From the NCBI RefSeq assembly GCF_009707385.1, contig NZ_CP046115.1, positions 5,022,001 to 5,086,000 on the forward strand: a stretch of 64,000 nucleotides of DNA, written 5' to 3'. Both the position numbers and the translations under genes were made by a program. The notes under the pieces are model-generated. The model did not search any database, was not told where the DNA came from, and was given only the letters and a program-made list of their open reading frames with translations. Below, in pieces: positions 21,421 through 27,033 of the stretch (position 1 is its first letter; every line of letters begins with the position of its first letter). Source of the DNA: Klebsiella oxytoca (lineage in GTDB: Bacteria > Pseudomonadota > Gammaproteobacteria > Enterobacterales > Enterobacteriaceae).

Positions 21421-22188
21421 ATGAAGACGCTTCATAAACCTACCGAGCGCGTTTTACTGATTCTGGAAACATTAGCCAACGCGGATGGAATGACGCTCTC
21501 CGAGCTGTCGCTCAAAACCGATATTTCAAAGGGAACCATTTTCCCAATTCTCAAATCGCTTCAGTACCGGAAATATATTAGTCACGACGATCGCAAGGGT
21601 ATTTACACGCTGGGGATCTCATGCGCGGTTCTGGCAAGCTCAACGGTTGAAAAAGAGTTCTGGCTTAAAATGATCAACGGTGAAATGCACACGGTGGTCA
21701 ATGAATGCAATGAGGTTTGCCAGCTCGGCATTCTGGATGATGCCTGGGTTCTTTACGTCGATAAAGTTCAGGGCGACCAAACCGTACAACTGGTCTCTAA
21801 GGTAGGGACTCGCCTTCCGGCCATCTGTTCCGCGTTGGGCAAAGCGCTGCTGCATAAGCACCGCGACGAAGAAATTGTGGAACTTTATCCGCAGGGTTTT
21901 CCTTCCGTTACCGCTCGCAGCGTAACGAATATGGCTCAGCTCCGTCCGCAGCTGGATTTTGTTGCCGCCAACGGTTATGCCATGGACGATCGGGAAATCA
22001 ACGATGATACCATCTGTTTCGCCGTCCCCCTGCAGCAGAAAGGCATTATTCTGGCGGCGATCAGCGTCTCATTGCCCTCTTTCCGCGCCAGCGATGAAAA
22101 AACGCGGCAGGTTATTCACGCGCTAAAAGAGGCCAAGGGTCGTATCGAAAGCGTGCTGAATAAGCTTCCTGATATTAAAAATTACTGA
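21421..22188 (+). CDS. IclR-family transcriptional regulator of the adjacent sugar-acid cassette
   Basis: 255 residues. N-terminal winged helix (ERVLLILETLANADGMTLSELSL, then TDISKGTIFPILKSLQYRKY) and a C-terminal IclR effector domain with the GTRLPAICSALGKALL segment that lines the ligand pocket. IclR regulators usually sense a pathway intermediate such as a keto-deoxy acid. It is the first gene of a rightward four-gene set and divergent from ugpB. Probably binds near the paired inverted repeats at 22376-22400 ahead of the next gene. I do not recognise a specific named orthologue. Confidence 0.88.
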   Translation: MKTLHKPTERVLLILETLANADGMTLSELSLKTDISKGTIFPILKSLQYRKYISHDDRKGIYTLGISCAVLASSTVEKEFWLKMINGEMHTVVNECNEVCQLGILDDAWVLYVDKVQGDQTVQLVSKVGTRLPAICSALGKALLHKHRDEEIVELYPQGFPSVTARSVTNMAQLRPQLDFVAANGYAMDDREINDDTICFAVPLQQKGIILAAISVSLPSFRASDEKTRQVIHALKEAKGRIESVLNKLPDIKNY

Positions 22189-22375
22189 TTTATTTGCCAA
22201 CGGCGCCTTCGGAATTGTGATTACCCACACAATACCGATATTTAATGATCCTCCGTGGCGCCCGACTATTCTGCATAATTCCCCATTTATTCATTGAGTT
22301 AATCAATTATCCGCCCGCCTTTTGCGCTATTTGACTTCACGTCGATGGCGTGTTTACTTATGCTTAATCGCAAAT

Positions 22376-22400
22376 ACAAACAACGTTTGTATATACGAAC
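22376..22400. promoter_or_regulatory. Overlapping inverted repeats, candidate operator of the sugar-acid genes
   Basis: ACAAAC-AAC-GTTTGT (22376-22390) is a perfect inverted repeat, and GTTTGTATATACGAAC (22385-22400) is a second near-perfect palindrome sharing the GTTTGT arm. The pair ends 14 bases before the DapA-like start, over the expected transcription start or leader. Assignment to the IclR protein is inference. Confidence 0.5.
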
Positions 22401-22414
22401 AAAAGAGGCTAAAT

Positions 22415-23314
22415 ATGCAAAGTCGTTACATCACCCCCGCAATAACGGTTTTTGATGAACAGGGCAGGCTGGATCCTGATGGAAATTTTCGCTTGTACGA
22501 TTTCATAAAAAATAACGTATCGGGATTTGTCGTCATGGGCAGTACCGGTGAGTTTTTCTCGCTGGATATGAAAACATCCCGTCAGATAATTCAAATGGCG
22601 GCAGAATTCCCGCGCGAGGGAATAAAGGCCTATGCGGGTACCAGCCGCATGGATATTGACGAATGCGTAGAGCTGGCAAACTACGCAGATGAGTGCGGAC
22701 TGGATGGCGTCATGATTATCAGCCCGTGGTACTTCCGCCTGACGGATGAAGGCGTTTATACATTTTATAGCCAGATTGCCCGCCGCACTGCCGCCAAAAT
22801 ATTTATCTATAACTTTCCGGAGCGCACCGGCTACTCCGTCTCGCCAGCAGTTTGTTTACGGCTCGCCAGAGAGTTCCCGAATATTGTCGGTCTTAAAGAT
22901 ACCATACCGGACACCAATCATACGTCGCAGGTAATTCGCCAGGTAAAATCTGAACTACCGTATTTTGAAGTCTATGCCGGTTATGACAATAACTTTGCGC
23001 ACAACGTCTTATCTGGAGGAGATGGATGTATAGGCGGATTATCAAATATCTGCCCTGAAGTCTTCCGCGACTGGATGCAGGCATTTAACGATAACGATCT
23101 GAACCAGATTTCGCTTTTGCAGAAAAAAGTGGATGATTTAATGGATATTTACGCGGTTAACGATCCATTCATTCCAACCTTTAAAAAAGCATTACAGCTA
23201 CGCGGTATTATTCAGTCCGACCGCTGCACGCCGCCTTTTAGCACACTCGCAACCTGCCAGACCGAAAGTATTCAACGAATACTTTCCCGCGCTGGTATTG
23301 AAATTAATGCCTGA
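22415..23314 (+). CDS. DapA/DHDPS-family lyase, probable 2-keto-3-deoxy acid aldolase or dehydratase
   Basis: 299 residues from ATG at 22415 with AAAGAGG upstream; a longer upstream frame crosses the putative operator and is not used. Class I aldolase barrel of the DapA superfamily: GSTGE at 42-46, the catalytic Tyr132 in IYNFPERTGYS, and Schiff-base Lys161 in VGLKDT. True dihydrodipicolinate synthase is unlikely given the neighbours: an IclR regulator, an MFS carrier and a UxaA-type dehydratase. The family also contains KDG/keto-deoxy-galactonate aldolases (YagE, YjhH) and 5-keto-4-deoxyglucarate dehydratase, and GEFFSL resembles these. A role in cleaving the keto-deoxy acid made by the downstream dehydratase is the simplest inference. 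Confidence 0.85.
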   Translation: MQSRYITPAITVFDEQGRLDPDGNFRLYDFIKNNVSGFVVMGSTGEFFSLDMKTSRQIIQMAAEFPREGIKAYAGTSRMDIDECVELANYADECGLDGVMIISPWYFRLTDEGVYTFYSQIARRTAAKIFIYNFPERTGYSVSPAVCLRLAREFPNIVGLKDTIPDTNHTSQVIRQVKSELPYFEVYAGYDNNFAHNVLSGGDGCIGGLSNICPEVFRDWMQAFNDNDLNQISLLQKKVDDLMDIYAVNDPFIPTFKKALQLRGIIQSDRCTPPFSTLATCQTESIQRILSRAGIEINA

Positions 23315-23332
23315 CCCCCACGCGGAGGTATT

Positions 23333-24643
23333 ATGAAAACAATCACTGCTTATGATAACCCGGTCCTTAATTCCGCGATTACAAAATCGTGGAAACGCCT
23401 GGTTCCTCTAATGTTTATTCTGTACTTCATCGCCTTTATCGACAGGGTGAACGTGGGATTTGCCAAAGAAGCGATGCAGGTGGACATTGGGCTCTCCAAT
23501 TCCGCCTTTGCGCTCGGGGCGGGGATCTTTTTTGCCGCCTACGCGCTATTTGGTATTCCCGCGAACCTGATCCTCAATAAAATTGGCGCGCAGAAATGGT
23601 TAAGCATTACTACCGCACTGTGGGGCCTACTCTCCGCCCTCACCGGGTTAGTACAAACGGAGACCCAGTTTATCGTTCTGCGTTTTTTACTGGGATTAGG
23701 CGAAGCCGGTTTTTATCCCGGTATTCTGCTGCTGGCTTCAATCTACTTTCCTAATAAAGTGCGCGCCTCCGTGGTCGGTATCTTCGTCCTCGGCGTGCCG
23801 CTGGCGCTGACCTTAGGCTCGCCCATCTCCGGCGCGCTTCTGGAAATGCACGGCTTCCTCGGTAAACCCGGCTGGTTCTGGATGTTCTTTATCGAAGGCA
23901 TCCCGGCGGTCATCATGGGAATCTTTGCCTGGTTCTGGCTTGATGATACGCCAGCTAAAGCGCGCTTTCTCACCGATGAAGAGAAAAAAGCGCTGATTGC
24001 CCAGCTTCAGCAGGAGCAGCAGCAGACGGAAACCAGCAGCGTAGGTACCGCTCTGAAAAGCCTTAAGGTCTGGCACCTGGCGCTGATCTACGGCACCATC
24101 CAGATCAGCGTTTACGGGCTGATGTTCTTCCTGCCTTCGCAAGTCGCCTCGCTAATGGGTTCCACGCTCGGTTTTAAAGAGTCGCTGGTCGCCGCTATCC
24201 CCTGGGCCTGCTCCGCCGTTGGGGTCTATTACATCCCGCGTCTGGCGGACAAAATGCCAGCCCGGCGGATTCTTATCTCGGTATTCTGTATGCTGGCTGC
24301 AGCGCTGGGCCTGTTTGTTTCTGCCTGGTCCGGCCCGGTACTGGCGATTGCCGCCCTCTCGCTATCGGCCATCGGTTTCCTCTCCGTGCAACCTATTTTC
24401 TGGACCTTCCCGGCGCAAATCGTGTCAGGGTCAGCGCTGGCTGCCAGTATCGGCTTTTGCACCACCATGGGCGCGTTCTGTAGCTTTCTGGCCCCGCTCA
24501 TTCGCGTCGAGGTCGATGCCTTCTTCGGCAACGATTCGGCTGGTCTGGTCGCCCTGTCGCTCATCACCGTCTGCTGCGCGCTGCTTATTGCCGCCCTCGC
24601 CGGCAGAAAAGCGACAAACGGCGTCGCGATCACTCATCACTAA
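23333..24643 (+). CDS. MFS transporter, anion:cation symporter type (probable sugar-acid importer)
   Basis: 436 residues, twelve predicted membrane segments with a cytoplasmic loop after the sixth (KKALIAQLQQEQQQTE). Features of the ACS family (GudP, ExuT, DgoT-like): RVNVGFAKEAM after helix 1, LRFLLGLGEAGFYPGILL in helix 4, and WFWMFFIEGIPAVIMG. Members carry organic acids and sugar acids with protons. Starts 18 bp after the lyase gene with GGAGG just upstream, so they are cotranscribed. Substrate unknown, but its placement points to the compound handled by the dehydratase next to it. Confidence 0.87.
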   Translation: MKTITAYDNPVLNSAITKSWKRLVPLMFILYFIAFIDRVNVGFAKEAMQVDIGLSNSAFALGAGIFFAAYALFGIPANLILNKIGAQKWLSITTALWGLLSALTGLVQTETQFIVLRFLLGLGEAGFYPGILLLASIYFPNKVRASVVGIFVLGVPLALTLGSPISGALLEMHGFLGKPGWFWMFFIEGIPAVIMGIFAWFWLDDTPAKARFLTDEEKKALIAQLQQEQQQTETSSVGTALKSLKVWHLALIYGTIQISVYGLMFFLPSQVASLMGSTLGFKESLVAAIPWACSAVGVYYIPRLADKMPARRILISVFCMLAAALGLFVSAWSGPVLAIAALSLSAIGFLSVQPIFWTFPAQIVSGSALAASIGFCTTMGAFCSFLAPLIRVEVDAFFGNDSAGLVALSLITVCCALLIAALAGRKATNGVAITHH

Positions 24644-24676
24644 GTCCTGATGCGCCTATAACAAAGGATAAATAAC

Positions 24677-26272
24677 ATGCAGACCATCTTAAAAATTGAC
24701 CCTACCGATAACCTGATCGTTGCGCTGCAGGACTTACGCAAAGAGCAGCAGGTGAACTGGAACGATGAAGCCTACGTTCTGCGTAGCGATGTCAAAGCCA
24801 AACATAAGTTCGCGACTCAAGATATCGAGACCGGCGATATTGTATCGCTGTACGGCGTACCGGTAGGCAAAGCGACGCGGCCCATTGCCTGCGGTGAAGC
24901 CATCACGACCGAGAATATCAAACACTACGCGGCCCCGGTTTCGCTTGACGACGTCGCCCCCTACGACTGGCAGCAGCCCGATGTTTCCGCCTGGCAGCAG
25001 CGGACGTTTAAGGGAATCGTGCGTGAAGATGGCCGGGTCGCCACCGCGAACTACTGGCTGGTCATTCCGCTGGTATTCTGTGAAAACCGCAACGTTCAGC
25101 GCGTCACCGACGCATTAAACGACGCTCTTGGCTACGCCAATAACGGCCTGAAAAACTTTGCTCGCCAGGTAACGTCGGCTGGAGCCTTAAACGATACTCG
25201 CCATCTGCCCTTCCCGCATCTTGACGGCATCCGCTGTATTACCGTTAACTCCGGCTGCGGCGGCGCCACCTCAGACAGCATGACGATGTGCGACGTGCTG
25301 GCCGCCTATTCCGACCACCCTAACGTTCTTGGCGTAACGGTCTTTGCCCTCGGCTGTGAAAAAGCGCGAATTGTTGATTTCAAGGCCGCTCTGGCGAAGC
25401 GCAACCCGCACTTCAACAAGCCGGTTATCTACTTCAGGCAGCAGGACTGGAGTAGTGAAGAAAAGATGATGCAGGATGCGTTGACCGAGACCTATAACGC
25501 GATTCGTGAGGCCCCCATCGCCGAGCGGCAGGACGTCCCGCTCTCCCACCTCAAAATCGGCGTGAAGTGTGGTGCTTCAGACGGATTCTCGGGGATCAGC
25601 GCCAACCCGGCGATGGGCGAGGTTTCAGATCGCCTTGTCGCGCTCGGCGGCGCTTCGGGGCTGGCAGAATTTCCCGAACTGTGCGGCGCGGAAGGGGATA
25701 TCGTTCAACGCTGCGCGACCCGCGAGCTAAAAGAGAAGTTTCTGGCGCTGATGAAAAACTATGAGCATGTCGCTAACTTTTTCGGTACCACCATCGCCGA
25801 TAATCCCAGTCCGGGAAACATTGCCGACGGGCTGATTACGGACGCCATCAAATCCGCCGGAGCGGCAAAAAAAGGCGGCAGAGCGCCTGTTAGCGCAGTA
25901 TGCGACTACGCCGAACCGATGGGCGCAAGCGGTCTTTCACTGGTCTGTACGCCGGGCAACGATGTGGACGCGGTAACGGGCCTGGTCGCGGCGGGGTGCA
26001 ACGTGGTGATCTTCTCAACCGGGTTGGGTACGCCGACGGGTAACCCTATCGTTCCGGTGCTTAAAGTATCCACCAACTCGGCGCTGGCGAAAAAGATGCC
26101 GGATATTATCGATTATGACTGCGGGCCGATTATCGAGGGTACGCCGCTGGCGGACATCGCCGACGGCCTGTTTGAGAAAATCATCGCCACCGCCAGCGGA
26201 ACCTGGCGAACCAAAGCGGATGCGCTTGAACAGTATGATTTTATGCTGTGGAAACGCTCGCTGGAGCTGTAG
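24677..26272 (+). CDS. UxaA/GarD-family sugar-acid dehydratase
   Basis: 531 residues with a SAF domain at the N terminus (about residues 1-90) and the large UxaA/GarD catalytic domain. Conserved family patches are clear: GCEKARI, GVKCGASDGFSGISANPAMG, NPSPGN, LVCTPGNDVDAV and STGLGTPTGNP. The family dehydrates altronate (UxaA) or galactarate (GarD), using iron. It is closer in layout to UxaA, but the usual R-x-G-x-VGVRN motif reads REDGRVATANYW, so substrate may differ. Last gene of the cassette, followed by a strong terminator. Altronate itself is possible but uxaB/uxuA-type partners are not here. Confidence 0.85.
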   Translation: MQTILKIDPTDNLIVALQDLRKEQQVNWNDEAYVLRSDVKAKHKFATQDIETGDIVSLYGVPVGKATRPIACGEAITTENIKHYAAPVSLDDVAPYDWQQPDVSAWQQRTFKGIVREDGRVATANYWLVIPLVFCENRNVQRVTDALNDALGYANNGLKNFARQVTSAGALNDTRHLPFPHLDGIRCITVNSGCGGATSDSMTMCDVLAAYSDHPNVLGVTVFALGCEKARIVDFKAALAKRNPHFNKPVIYFRQQDWSSEEKMMQDALTETYNAIREAPIAERQDVPLSHLKIGVKCGASDGFSGISANPAMGEVSDRLVALGGASGLAEFPELCGAEGDIVQRCATRELKEKFLALMKNYEHVANFFGTTIADNPSPGNIADGLITDAIKSAGAAKKGGRAPVSAVCDYAEPMGASGLSLVCTPGNDVDAVTGLVAAGCNVVIFSTGLGTPTGNPIVPVLKVSTNSALAKKMPDIIDYDCGPIIEGTPLADIADGLFEKIIATASGTWRTKADALEQYDFMLWKRSLEL

Positions 26273-26280
26273 AAATTAAA

Positions 26281-26318
26281 CAAAATGCCCGGCAGTCCAC
26301 AGCTGCCGGGCATTTTTA
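26281..26318. terminator. Bidirectional terminator between the dehydratase gene and livF
   Basis: AATGCCCGGCAG (26284-26295) pairs with CTGCCGGGCATT (26303-26314), 12 bp, followed by T on the + strand and preceded by AAAC on the other. Serves both convergent units. Confidence 0.88.
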
Positions 26319-26319
26319 C

Positions 26320-27033
26320 TTACCCGCCCAGATAGGCGCTGCGTACGGCTTCATTCGCCAGCAGCGCGTCTCCGGTATCCTCCAGCACCACATGGCCGTT
26401 CTCCAGCACGTAGCCGCGATCGGCCAGCTTCAGCGCCTGGTTGGCGTTCTGCTCAACGAGGAAGATGGTCATCCCCTGCTCGCGCAGCTGTTCGATGGTG
26501 TCGAAGATTTGCTGAATGATAATCGGCGCCAGACCGAGCGAAGGCTCATCCAGCAGCAGCAGGCGCGGCTGGCTCATCAGCGCGCGCCCGATGGCCAGCA
26601 TCTGCTGCTCGCCGCCGGACATGGTGCCCGCCCGCTGAACACGGCGCTCATGCAGGCGCGGAAACAGCTCATACACCCATTTGATGCGGGTCTGGAACTG
26701 GTCGCGATCGGCAAAAAAACCGCCCATCGCCAGGTTCTCTTCCACCGTCATCCGCGAGAAGACCCGGCGCCCTTCCGGCACGATCGCCACCGCTTCGCGC
26801 ATGATTTTCGCCGTCTGCCAGTCGGTAATATCTTTACCGTCGAAAACCACGCGTCCGCTGGAGGCGCGCGGGTCGCCGCACAGCGTCCCCAGCAGCGTGG
26901 TTTTCCCCGCGCCGTTCGCGCCAATCAGGGTGACAATCTCCCCCTGATTGATATGCAGGCTGACGTTATGCAGCGCCTGGATTTTGCCGTAGTGGGCGCT
27001 GACATCGTCAAAAGATAACATCACTTTTTCCAT
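26320..27033 (-). CDS. livF: Branched-chain amino acid ABC transporter ATPase LivF
   Basis: 237 residues from ATG at 27033 (MEKVMLSFDDVSAHYG), as in E. coli. An in-frame ATG at 27051 that shares a base with the livG stop would add six residues and cannot be excluded. Walker A GANGAGKTT, signature MSGGEQQMLAIGRAL, Walker B LLLLDEP. Pairs with LivG to drive the LivHM permease. Last gene of the leftward livKHMGF operon. Confidence 0.95.
   Translation of the reverse strand: MEKVMLSFDDVSAHYGKIQALHNVSLHINQGEIVTLIGANGAGKTTLLGTLCGDPRASSGRVVFDGKDITDWQTAKIMREAVAIVPEGRRVFSRMTVEENLAMGGFFADRDQFQTRIKWVYELFPRLHERRVQRAGTMSGGEQQMLAIGRALMSQPRLLLLDEPSLGLAPIIIQQIFDTIEQLREQGMTIFLVEQNANQALKLADRGYVLENGHVVLEDTGDALLANEAVRSAYLGG

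Follow-up and report, generated by a model that had tools for sequence, protein, structure and literature searches.

The window analyzed here is a stretch of 64,000 nucleotides from the Klebsiella oxytoca contig NZ_CP046115.1. Between ugpB and livF it holds a cassette of four genes, encoding an IclR-family regulator, a DapA-superfamily lyase, an MFS carrier and a UxaA/GarD-family dehydratase (Table 1). Open reading frames place all four on the + strand where a first-pass annotation of this DNA had put them, and in the single E. coli record viewed ugpB does adjoin livF, as that annotation had said.

Table 1. Genes and sequence features of the cassette, in window coordinates
Feature	Position	Strand	Basis
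IclR-family regulator, 255 aa	21421..22188	+	Pfam IclR_C + HTH_IclR
YagE-like DapA-superfamily class I lyase, 299 aa; Ser43, Tyr132, Lys161	22415..23314	+	Pfam DHDPS
MFS carrier, 436 aa, D-galactonate-type (ACS) kin	23333..24643	+	Pfam MFS_1
Long-form UxaA/GarD-family dehydratase, 531 aa; Cys135, Cys194, Cys227, Cys298	24677..26272	+	Pfam domains
Candidate lyase-operon promoter (TTGACT, 18 nt, TACTTA)	22331..22360	+	read by eye
Perfect inverted repeat ATACAAAC-AAC-GTTTGTAT	22374..22392	.	overlaps predicted operator
Predicted operator of IclR-type regulator, GTTTGTATATACGAACAA	22385..22402	.	conservation
Terminator-like hairpin between dehydratase gene and convergent livF	26282..26316 (about)	.	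folding energy, terminator scan

Layout, promoter region and distribution of the cassette

The cassette had been described as one rightward run closed by a strong terminator. The shared strand stands, but a single transcription unit is less likely: the regulator gene is separated from the lyase gene by 226 bp bearing a conserved palindrome, versus 18 bp between lyase and carrier and 33 bp between carrier and dehydratase, and the cassette is therefore probably two transcription units, with the regulator apart from the three later genes. The mechanical open frame of the lyase opens at TTG 22322; its likely start is ATG 22415. The candidate promoter is absent from the list of a consensus promoter scan; its TTTGACT is kept in 9/9 sequences of the genus as well as in E. 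coli and Providencia. The terminator is borne out by a hairpin, with a folding energy of -26.3 kcal/mol for the region 26273-26330; as the terminator scan puts this hairpin on the - strand, it may serve livF too.

The palindrome upstream of the lyase gene is the predicted operator of the regulator. It matches GTTTGTATATAYGAACAA exactly in five of the nine sequences from the genus and also in E. coli and in Providencia, the other genus sequences having one change (3/9) or two (1/9). The operator pattern is matched once within the window, versus 0.05 matches expected, and once exactly genome-wide, the next best match having three mismatches. Genome-wide, such three-mismatch matches occur at about the level of a control pattern (8 vs 6), and a regulon beyond the cassette was rejected as no second operator stands out. 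The nearest NCBIfam models to the regulator are BhcR (136 bits, cut-off 350) and KdgR (126 bits, cut-off 275), both under cut-off.

Of 20 genus genomes, nine have the cassette between ugpB and livF; the remaining 11 lack it at this site and have ugpB at most 1.5 kb from livF. The cassette is not a chance neighborhood, because the identical four-gene order recurs in eight further genus genomes, with protein identities of 91-98%. Among complete E. coli genomes, 507 of 5,426 carry a related set. Wider surveys give a patchy spread beyond the genus: 5/295 genomes at the order level (E<=1e-100; own genome and four Orbaceae), 1/369 at the class level (lyase query, E<=1e-70; own genome) and 6/398 at the phylum level (dehydratase query, E<=1e-140), in samples that miss known carriers of the cassette such as Providencia and Yersinia.

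Family assignment of the lyase, carrier and dehydratase

Tyr132 and Lys161, which had been named for the lyase, are correct and, together with Gly42, Ser43 and Gly45, invariant in 38/38 aligned lyases. YagE is the nearest solved relative both by sequence (166 bits; runner-up 127) and by fold, with an identity of 30-32%. According to one study, aldolases share a GxxG, Tyr and Lys set, in which Gln replaces Tyr in the pentonate dehydratase (PMC9795676); the GxxG, Tyr and Schiff-base Lys of YagE-type 2-keto-3-deoxy acid aldolases are all found in the window lyase. Because YagE is nearest on both counts and this set is kept, the lyase would be expected to cleave the product of the dehydratase, with cleavage favored over dehydration. 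The model TIGR00674 for 4-hydroxy-tetrahydrodipicolinate synthase DapA gives 168.2 bits (cut-off 206.15) and KdgD-type models give 83-93 bits against cut-offs of 278-374. For the carrier, TIGR00893 gives 252 bits, under its cut-off of 395.

In the dehydratase, SAF, GD_AH_second and GD_AH_C are all above Pfam cut-offs, placing it in the UxaA/GarD superfamily (COG2721), and its modeled fold matches GarD 6u7l (TM 0.73/0.83); the structure model is of moderate quality (mean pLDDT 79.9), its poor stretches including 303-307 and 376-386. The four cysteines listed in Table 1 are kept in 123/123 aligned rows (121 of them different), which include the UxaA and GarD encoded by separate genes of the host genome. 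The GarD equivalog TIGR03248 gives 217.7 bits with a cut-off of 730.85, and neither UxaB nor UxaC of the hexuronate pathway is encoded in the cassette. The Herbaspirillum huttiense D-arabinonate dehydratase C785_RS13685 is described as a member of this superfamily with four conserved cysteines (PMC6336799). The first two lie 39 residues apart in that enzyme (134, 173) and 59 apart in the window enzyme (135, 194); based on this difference the window dehydratase likely belongs to another subfamily, and membership of the H. huttiense subfamily was set aside on cysteine spacing.

Relatives of the dehydratase are found in two kinds of gene context, labeled by open-frame clusters within at most 8 kb, with some loci on short contigs: UxaB and/or UxaC at 26 of 80 named-genome loci, and at least two of four L-fucose-type clusters at 22 of the 80. 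At one L-fucose-type locus (L047) both FucP and L-fucose dehydrogenase are above cut-off, and at another relative's locus (L009) the dehydratase is 67% identical and the carrier is KdgT-like but under cut-off. In a tree built by a quick method, with SH-aLRT support only and 39/118 inner branches open, three labeled members in altronate context (Massilia, Telluria, PBB3) belong to a clade that is sister to all other rows of the 43-row clade holding the window enzyme.

The REDGRVATANYW motif of the dehydratase was confirmed; the first-pass annotation had taken it to argue against altronate or galactarate as the substrate. The corresponding stretch reads TANYW in 17/25 relatives beside UxaB and/or UxaC, which means that the motif does not exclude altronate, and in 13/22 relatives in L-fucose-type context. 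Since TANYW is common to both contexts, REDGRVATANYW is, on these alignments, a mark of the long-form subfamily and not of the substrate, and was rejected as a guide to the latter. No alignment column separates the altronate and fucose contexts cleanly, and the best columns follow phylogeny.

Proposed pathway and alternative substrates

Four Orbaceae genomes encode a carrier and a dehydratase that are 67-68% and 60-61% identical to those of the window. At all four loci read, the next genes code for a DapA-family lyase of another kind and for a FucO-like protein; two of these four FucO-like proteins, run against the curated model, reached 705 and 690 bits, above its cut-off of 537. L-fucose isomerase and L-rhamnose isomerase occur in 0/4 of these genomes, and FucO is thus left there with no lactaldehyde source of the usual type. 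Its linkage points to lactaldehyde or glycolaldehyde as the product, and therefore to L-fuconate or D-arabinonate as the substrate. The Orbaceae set differs from that of the window in that its lyase is not orthologous (30-32%), its regulator is merely 27-29% identical and the palindrome is absent. Next to the cassettes of Klebsiella, E. coli and Providencia, the stretches read contain no gene for FucO, an aldehyde dehydrogenase or a sugar dehydrogenase; the host genome has a FucO-family gene above cut-off.

With a probability of roughly 55%, the cassette would bring a sugar acid, probably L-fuconate and/or D-arabinonate, into the cell for dehydration and kinase-free cleavage to pyruvate and a short aldehyde. 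This reading is also favored by the L-fucose-type loci of dehydratase relatives, by the gene kinds of the Campylobacter jejuni fucose locus and by the C2-C4 configuration that D-arabinonate, D-altronate, L-fuconate and L-galactonate have in common. Against it stand the differences of the Orbaceae lyase and regulator, the lack of FucO or dehydrogenase neighbors at the enteric cassettes, the loci with UxaB and/or UxaC, the KdgT-like carrier at L009 and the absence of an alignment column that divides the two contexts. The MFS carrier would take up the acid, the dehydratase would turn it into a 2-keto-3-deoxy acid, and the class I lyase would split this with no ATP-spending kinase; L-fuconate would pass through L-2-keto-3-deoxyfuconate to pyruvate and L-lactaldehyde, and D-arabinonate through D-2-keto-3-deoxypentonate to pyruvate and glycolaldehyde. 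The aldehyde would then be reduced or oxidized by enzymes encoded outside the cassette, for which the host FucO-family gene may be relevant. The regulator would bind GTTTGTATATACGAAC immediately upstream of the lyase gene and let go of it in the presence of the 2-keto-3-deoxy acid, like its functional counterpart XynR. The order of steps is well supported. The sequences directly show which genes are there, their families, the conserved residues and palindrome, the presence or absence of the cassette at one site in the genus, and the FucO linkage in Orbaceae; from them we infer all activities, the substrate and the regulation. Import, dehydration and a Schiff-base lyase with no kinase, as first suggested, stand on protein families and catalytic residues; of the two product fates allowed in that scheme, cleavage is favored over dehydration.

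Another acid entering the same order of steps, e.g. L-galactonate, L-xylonate or D-idonate, is a rather unlikely substrate. L-xylonate is reportedly also used by a UxaA/GarD-family member, and its glycolaldehyde product would fit too. The family is promiscuous: in the H. huttiense report, one member accepts D-arabinonate, D-altronate, L-fuconate and L-galactonate, which have a common C2-C4 configuration, and a close relative is a D-idonate dehydratase (PMC6336799). However, the FucO of Orbaceae suits lactaldehyde or glycolaldehyde better than glyceraldehyde. The same protein counts against D-altronate, a quite improbable substrate, for which external altronate would be taken up, dehydrated to 2-keto-3-deoxygluconate and cleaved to pyruvate and D-glyceraldehyde by a KDG aldolase. 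A KDG aldolase role has been described for YagE too, and the 26 loci with UxaB and/or UxaC, those of the Massilia-type clade included, are consistent with altronate; however, another UxaA is already present in the genome, the cassette is without UxaB or UxaC, and the Orbaceae set is followed by FucO and not by a glyceraldehyde enzyme. It is very improbable that the lyase is a second dehydratase, converting 2-keto-3-deoxypentonate to alpha-ketoglutarate semialdehyde with no cleavage: such dehydratases do belong to the same superfamily, and a Runella dehydratase relative adjoins an NADP-linked aldehyde dehydrogenase and FAH/AraD1-type proteins, but Tyr132 is kept, YagE is the nearest relative, KdgD-type scores are far under cut-off and the cassette has no aldehyde dehydrogenase.

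If L-fuconate and/or D-arabinonate is indeed the substrate, the cassette would be an optional pathway in about one in eleven complete E. coli genomes and in nine of the 20 sampled genomes of the genus, and the "altronate dehydratase" label on several relatives would be misleading. To our knowledge, E. coli and Klebsiella have rarely been tested on such a carbon source. The analysis narrows the substrates to a short panel, predicts an operator and a class of effector, and extends the UxaA/GarD substrate map by a long-form subfamily in hexuronate and L-fucose contexts.

Comparison with known systems

A cassette between rlmB and yjfI in E. coli (e.g. NCTC86) has the same four genes and operator as the window, with identities of 56% (regulator), 66% (lyase), 80% (carrier) and 71% (dehydratase); it differs in a divergent regulator and in its chromosomal site. 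The first-pass annotation had proposed identity above 70% to a cassette of assigned substrate as evidence against novelty; this E. coli set, at 56-80%, has no assigned substrate in the records and papers examined. Among the papers listed on the cassette in enterics, covered by title and abstract and with subscription papers mostly outside the search, likewise none assigns a substrate.

The view of the cassette as undescribed biochemistry is nevertheless too strong, because the gene kinds recur in a Campylobacter jejuni locus and the logic in E. coli yagEFG/xynR. The latter, the D-xylonate operon of E. coli K-12, combines an IclR-family repressor (XynR), a YagE-type aldolase, a sugar-acid dehydratase (YagF, described as D-xylonate dehydratase) and a carrier, is kinase-free and has for its operator a palindrome of the TGTTC...GAACA type, like the one predicted for the window (PMC13279387, PMC11778176). 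The two systems differ in that the lyases are merely 30-32% identical and the dehydratases are of different families. YagF belongs to the IlvD/EDD family, not UxaA/GarD.

The L-fucose/D-arabinose locus of C. jejuni, cj0480c-cj0490, encodes FucR, the DapA-family Cj0481, the UxaA-type Cj0482/0483, the MFS protein Cj0484, FucX, FucP and others, and L-fuconate has been detected in this system (PMC6946681, PMC12566272, PMC11365321). No C. jejuni fucose-locus protein is among the best 120 matches listed per search, and the L-fucose dehydrogenase model NF052481 has no match at E<=1e-70 in the host's own genome. At the level of gene kinds, the published locus and the window share IclR-type, DapA-family, UxaA-type and MFS genes with no kinase; however, the C. 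jejuni route begins with the sugar itself, and its locus adds a dehydrogenase, hydrolase, mutarotase, FucP and aldehyde dehydrogenase, whereas the window set is without these, with no L-fucose dehydrogenase, lactonase or fucose carrier in the cassette. Tentatively, the cassette may represent a stand-alone operon for scavenging L-fuconate/D-arabinonate, in which a fucose-acid route is pared down to an importer, an iron-type dehydratase, an aldolase and a repressor and opens with the acid instead of the sugar, and which is kept as an optional element at fixed sites in Klebsiella and E. coli, by which gut enterics would use acids leaked by the oxidative fucose/arabinose metabolism of others.

Gene content and the two enzymes

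The four-gene set lies between ugpB and livF, an observation of the first-pass annotation that open frames and domain matches bear out. Intergenic gaps across the set are 226, 18, 33 and 47 bp, the last separating the dehydratase gene from the convergent livF and holding a hairpin. The host genome is a single contig of 5.39 Mb, and the closest named proteins come from Klebsiella oxytoca, K. michiganensis and Klebsiella sp. A step order of import, dehydration and aldol cleavage, with no kinase, is highly probable; that the substrate is L-fuconate and/or D-arabinonate, cleaved to pyruvate and a short aldehyde, is given a probability of about 0.55. As a whole, the set represents a pared-down form of an already known type of kinase-free sugar-acid pathway, and the key argument once made for an unknown substrate, that the dehydratase departs from the VGVRN-type motif of UxaA, was wrong.

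Positions of the four genes in the window and of the related E. coli set
Feature	Position	Strand	Basis or remark
IclR-family regulator	21421-22188	+	open frame, domains
DapA-superfamily lyase	ATG 22415 to 23314	+	open frame, domains
MFS carrier	23333-24643	+	open frame, domains
UxaA/GarD-family dehydratase	24677-26272	+	open frame, domains
E. coli cassette	L106:6015-10997 (E. coli NCTC86); L005:4614-9596		related set, rlmB-yjfI site

The closest solved relative of the lyase is YagE (9e-48; runner-up 5e-36), with a TM score of 0.94 at 30-32% identity and a confident structure model (pLDDT 94.3), and Gly42, Ser43, Gly45, Tyr132 and Lys161 do not vary across 38 sequences. As the residues listed for aldolases in PMC9795676 are present, the lyase is by sequence a predicted aldolase and not a keto-deoxypentonate dehydratase.

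The dehydratase carries all three UxaA/GarD family domains and has the fold of GarD (6u7l; TM 0.73 by query, 0.83 by target). Family cysteines 135, 194, 227 and 298 are conserved in every one of 123 aligned rows (121 different; the window protein was entered twice), the genome's own UxaA and GarD among them. Identity to its own UxaA is 37% over the matched C-terminal part and 33% over nearly the full length, and to its own GarD 31% and 28%; judged on these comparisons, it is distinct from both. A quick tree gathers the long-form subfamily into a single 117-row clade; the window protein belongs to a 43-row Pseudomonadota clade and, inside that, to a 23-row clade that has members from Klebsiella, Serratia, Sodalis, Providencia, Morganella, Yersinia and E. 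coli.

Evidence on the substrate

Among the best 80 loci of the named-genome scan, dehydratase relatives lie with UxaB and/or UxaC clusters (hexuronate context) at 26 and with at least two of four L-fucose-type route clusters at 22. At one locus, L047, FucP and L-fucose dehydrogenase exceed curated cut-offs, and lactonase and hydrolase models match below cut-off. D-arabinonate, D-altronate, L-fuconate and L-galactonate have a common D-arabino C2-C4 configuration (PMC6336799), and the hexuronate and L-fucose contexts therefore tie the relatives to acids of this configuration.

On a Runella plasmid (L006:5474-13181), a 50% dehydratase relative occurs with a FAH-family protein, an NADP-linked aldehyde dehydrogenase and an AraD1-family protein, suggesting a different, alpha-ketoglutarate-forming route. 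In Elizabethkingia (L079:3859-6553), genes of the lactate-oxidation type, namely one for a LutB-like protein (442.3 bits against a cut-off of 444.8) and those around it, adjoin an L-fucose-type operon, which fits L-lactate as end product there.

Four Orbaceae genomes carry a carrier (67-68%) and a dehydratase (60-61%) related to those of the window, followed by another DapA-family lyase (30-32%) and a 383-aa protein. Both 383-aa proteins scored against NCBIfam are lactaldehyde reductase FucO over cut-off, and the other two cluster with them. L-fucose isomerase and L-rhamnose isomerase had no match in any of the four genomes, with the host genome and E. coli as positive controls. Glycolaldehyde is also a substrate of FucO. 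Most simply, the Orbaceae FucO would clear the aldehyde made by the cassette, which would be L-lactaldehyde if the acid is L-fuconate and glycolaldehyde if it is D-arabinonate. The host genome encodes FucO over cut-off, FucI and RhaA, and no L-fucose dehydrogenase of family NF052481 was found in it at E<=1e-70. Only two of 21 searched genomes (L177 in G080, L178 in G295) have L-fucose dehydrogenase over cut-off, both of this genus and both without the cassette.

Several results count against L-fuconate and D-arabinonate. The Orbaceae lyase is not orthologous to that of the window. Labelled members of the Massilia-type clade, which is sister to all other rows of the 43-row clade, lie in a UxaB/UxaC context. 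Enterobacteriaceae bacterium B14 (L009:6111-9596) has a 67% dehydratase and a 35% DapA-family lyase, but its MFS carrier is replaced by a KdgT-like one (219 bits against a cut-off of 453.8). No alignment column cleanly separating hexuronate from L-fucose contexts was found, nor was FucO beside the enteric cassettes in the stretches covered.

Site, spread and regulation

The set occurs in 9 of 20 genus genomes, always at the ugpB-livF site, in identical order and at 91-98% protein identity; in the remaining 11, ugpB lies within 1.5 kb of livF and the dehydratase is absent at the site. Two cassette-free genomes (L117 in G307, L121 in G312) have a livF-ugpB spacing of about 1 kb, against roughly 0.3 kb in the others. 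In the one E. coli record viewed, ugpB adjoins livF. The related, unassigned E. coli cassette, with identities of 56% for the regulator, 66% for the lyase, 80% for the carrier and 71% for the dehydratase, lies in the rlmB-yjfI interval with its regulator divergent, and is present at 80% of length or more in 507 of 5,426 complete genomes (514 with any match). In record H22 an IS2 element cuts the dehydratase annotation in two, and IS2 is also present in the cassette stretch of H29. Surveys were positive in 5 of 295 genomes at order level, 1 of 369 at class level (lyase, E<=1e-70) and 6 of 398 at phylum level (dehydratase, E<=1e-140). The frequency of related sets in E. coli and in this genus makes the set worth testing.

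Upstream of the lyase gene, the predicted operator GTTTGTATATAYGAACAA is exact in five of nine genus sequences, the window included, and in E. coli and Providencia; three others differ from it only in the first base, and one carries two changes. TTTGACT upstream of it is common to all eleven sequences. Genome-wide there is a single exact copy of the 18-mer, with eight other places at three mismatches against six for the reversed control pattern, and the two upstream regions examined from Orbaceae showed no palindrome of this kind. The operator sequence is similar to the XynR box given in PMC11778176; XynR represses the D-xylonate operon and, according to PMC13279387, has the 2-keto-3-deoxy acid and not xylonate as effector. 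C. jejuni FucR, as described in PMC12566272, is not released from DNA in vitro by L-fucose itself, which fits a downstream effector. By analogy with XynR and FucR, the window regulator is predicted to respond to such an effector.

Comparison with the Campylobacter jejuni fucose locus

The C. jejuni lyase has reportedly been assayed as an L-2-keto-3-deoxyfuconate aldolase in one paper. The paper on that lyase is cited for FucH in PMC11199699. As set out in PMC6946681, PMC12566272 and PMC11365321, the C. jejuni fucose locus has the same four kinds of gene as the window set and enables use of L-fucose and D-arabinose, with L-fuconate detected there. Independently of the Orbaceae loci, this likeness points to L-fuconate or D-arabinonate as the probable substrate of the window set.
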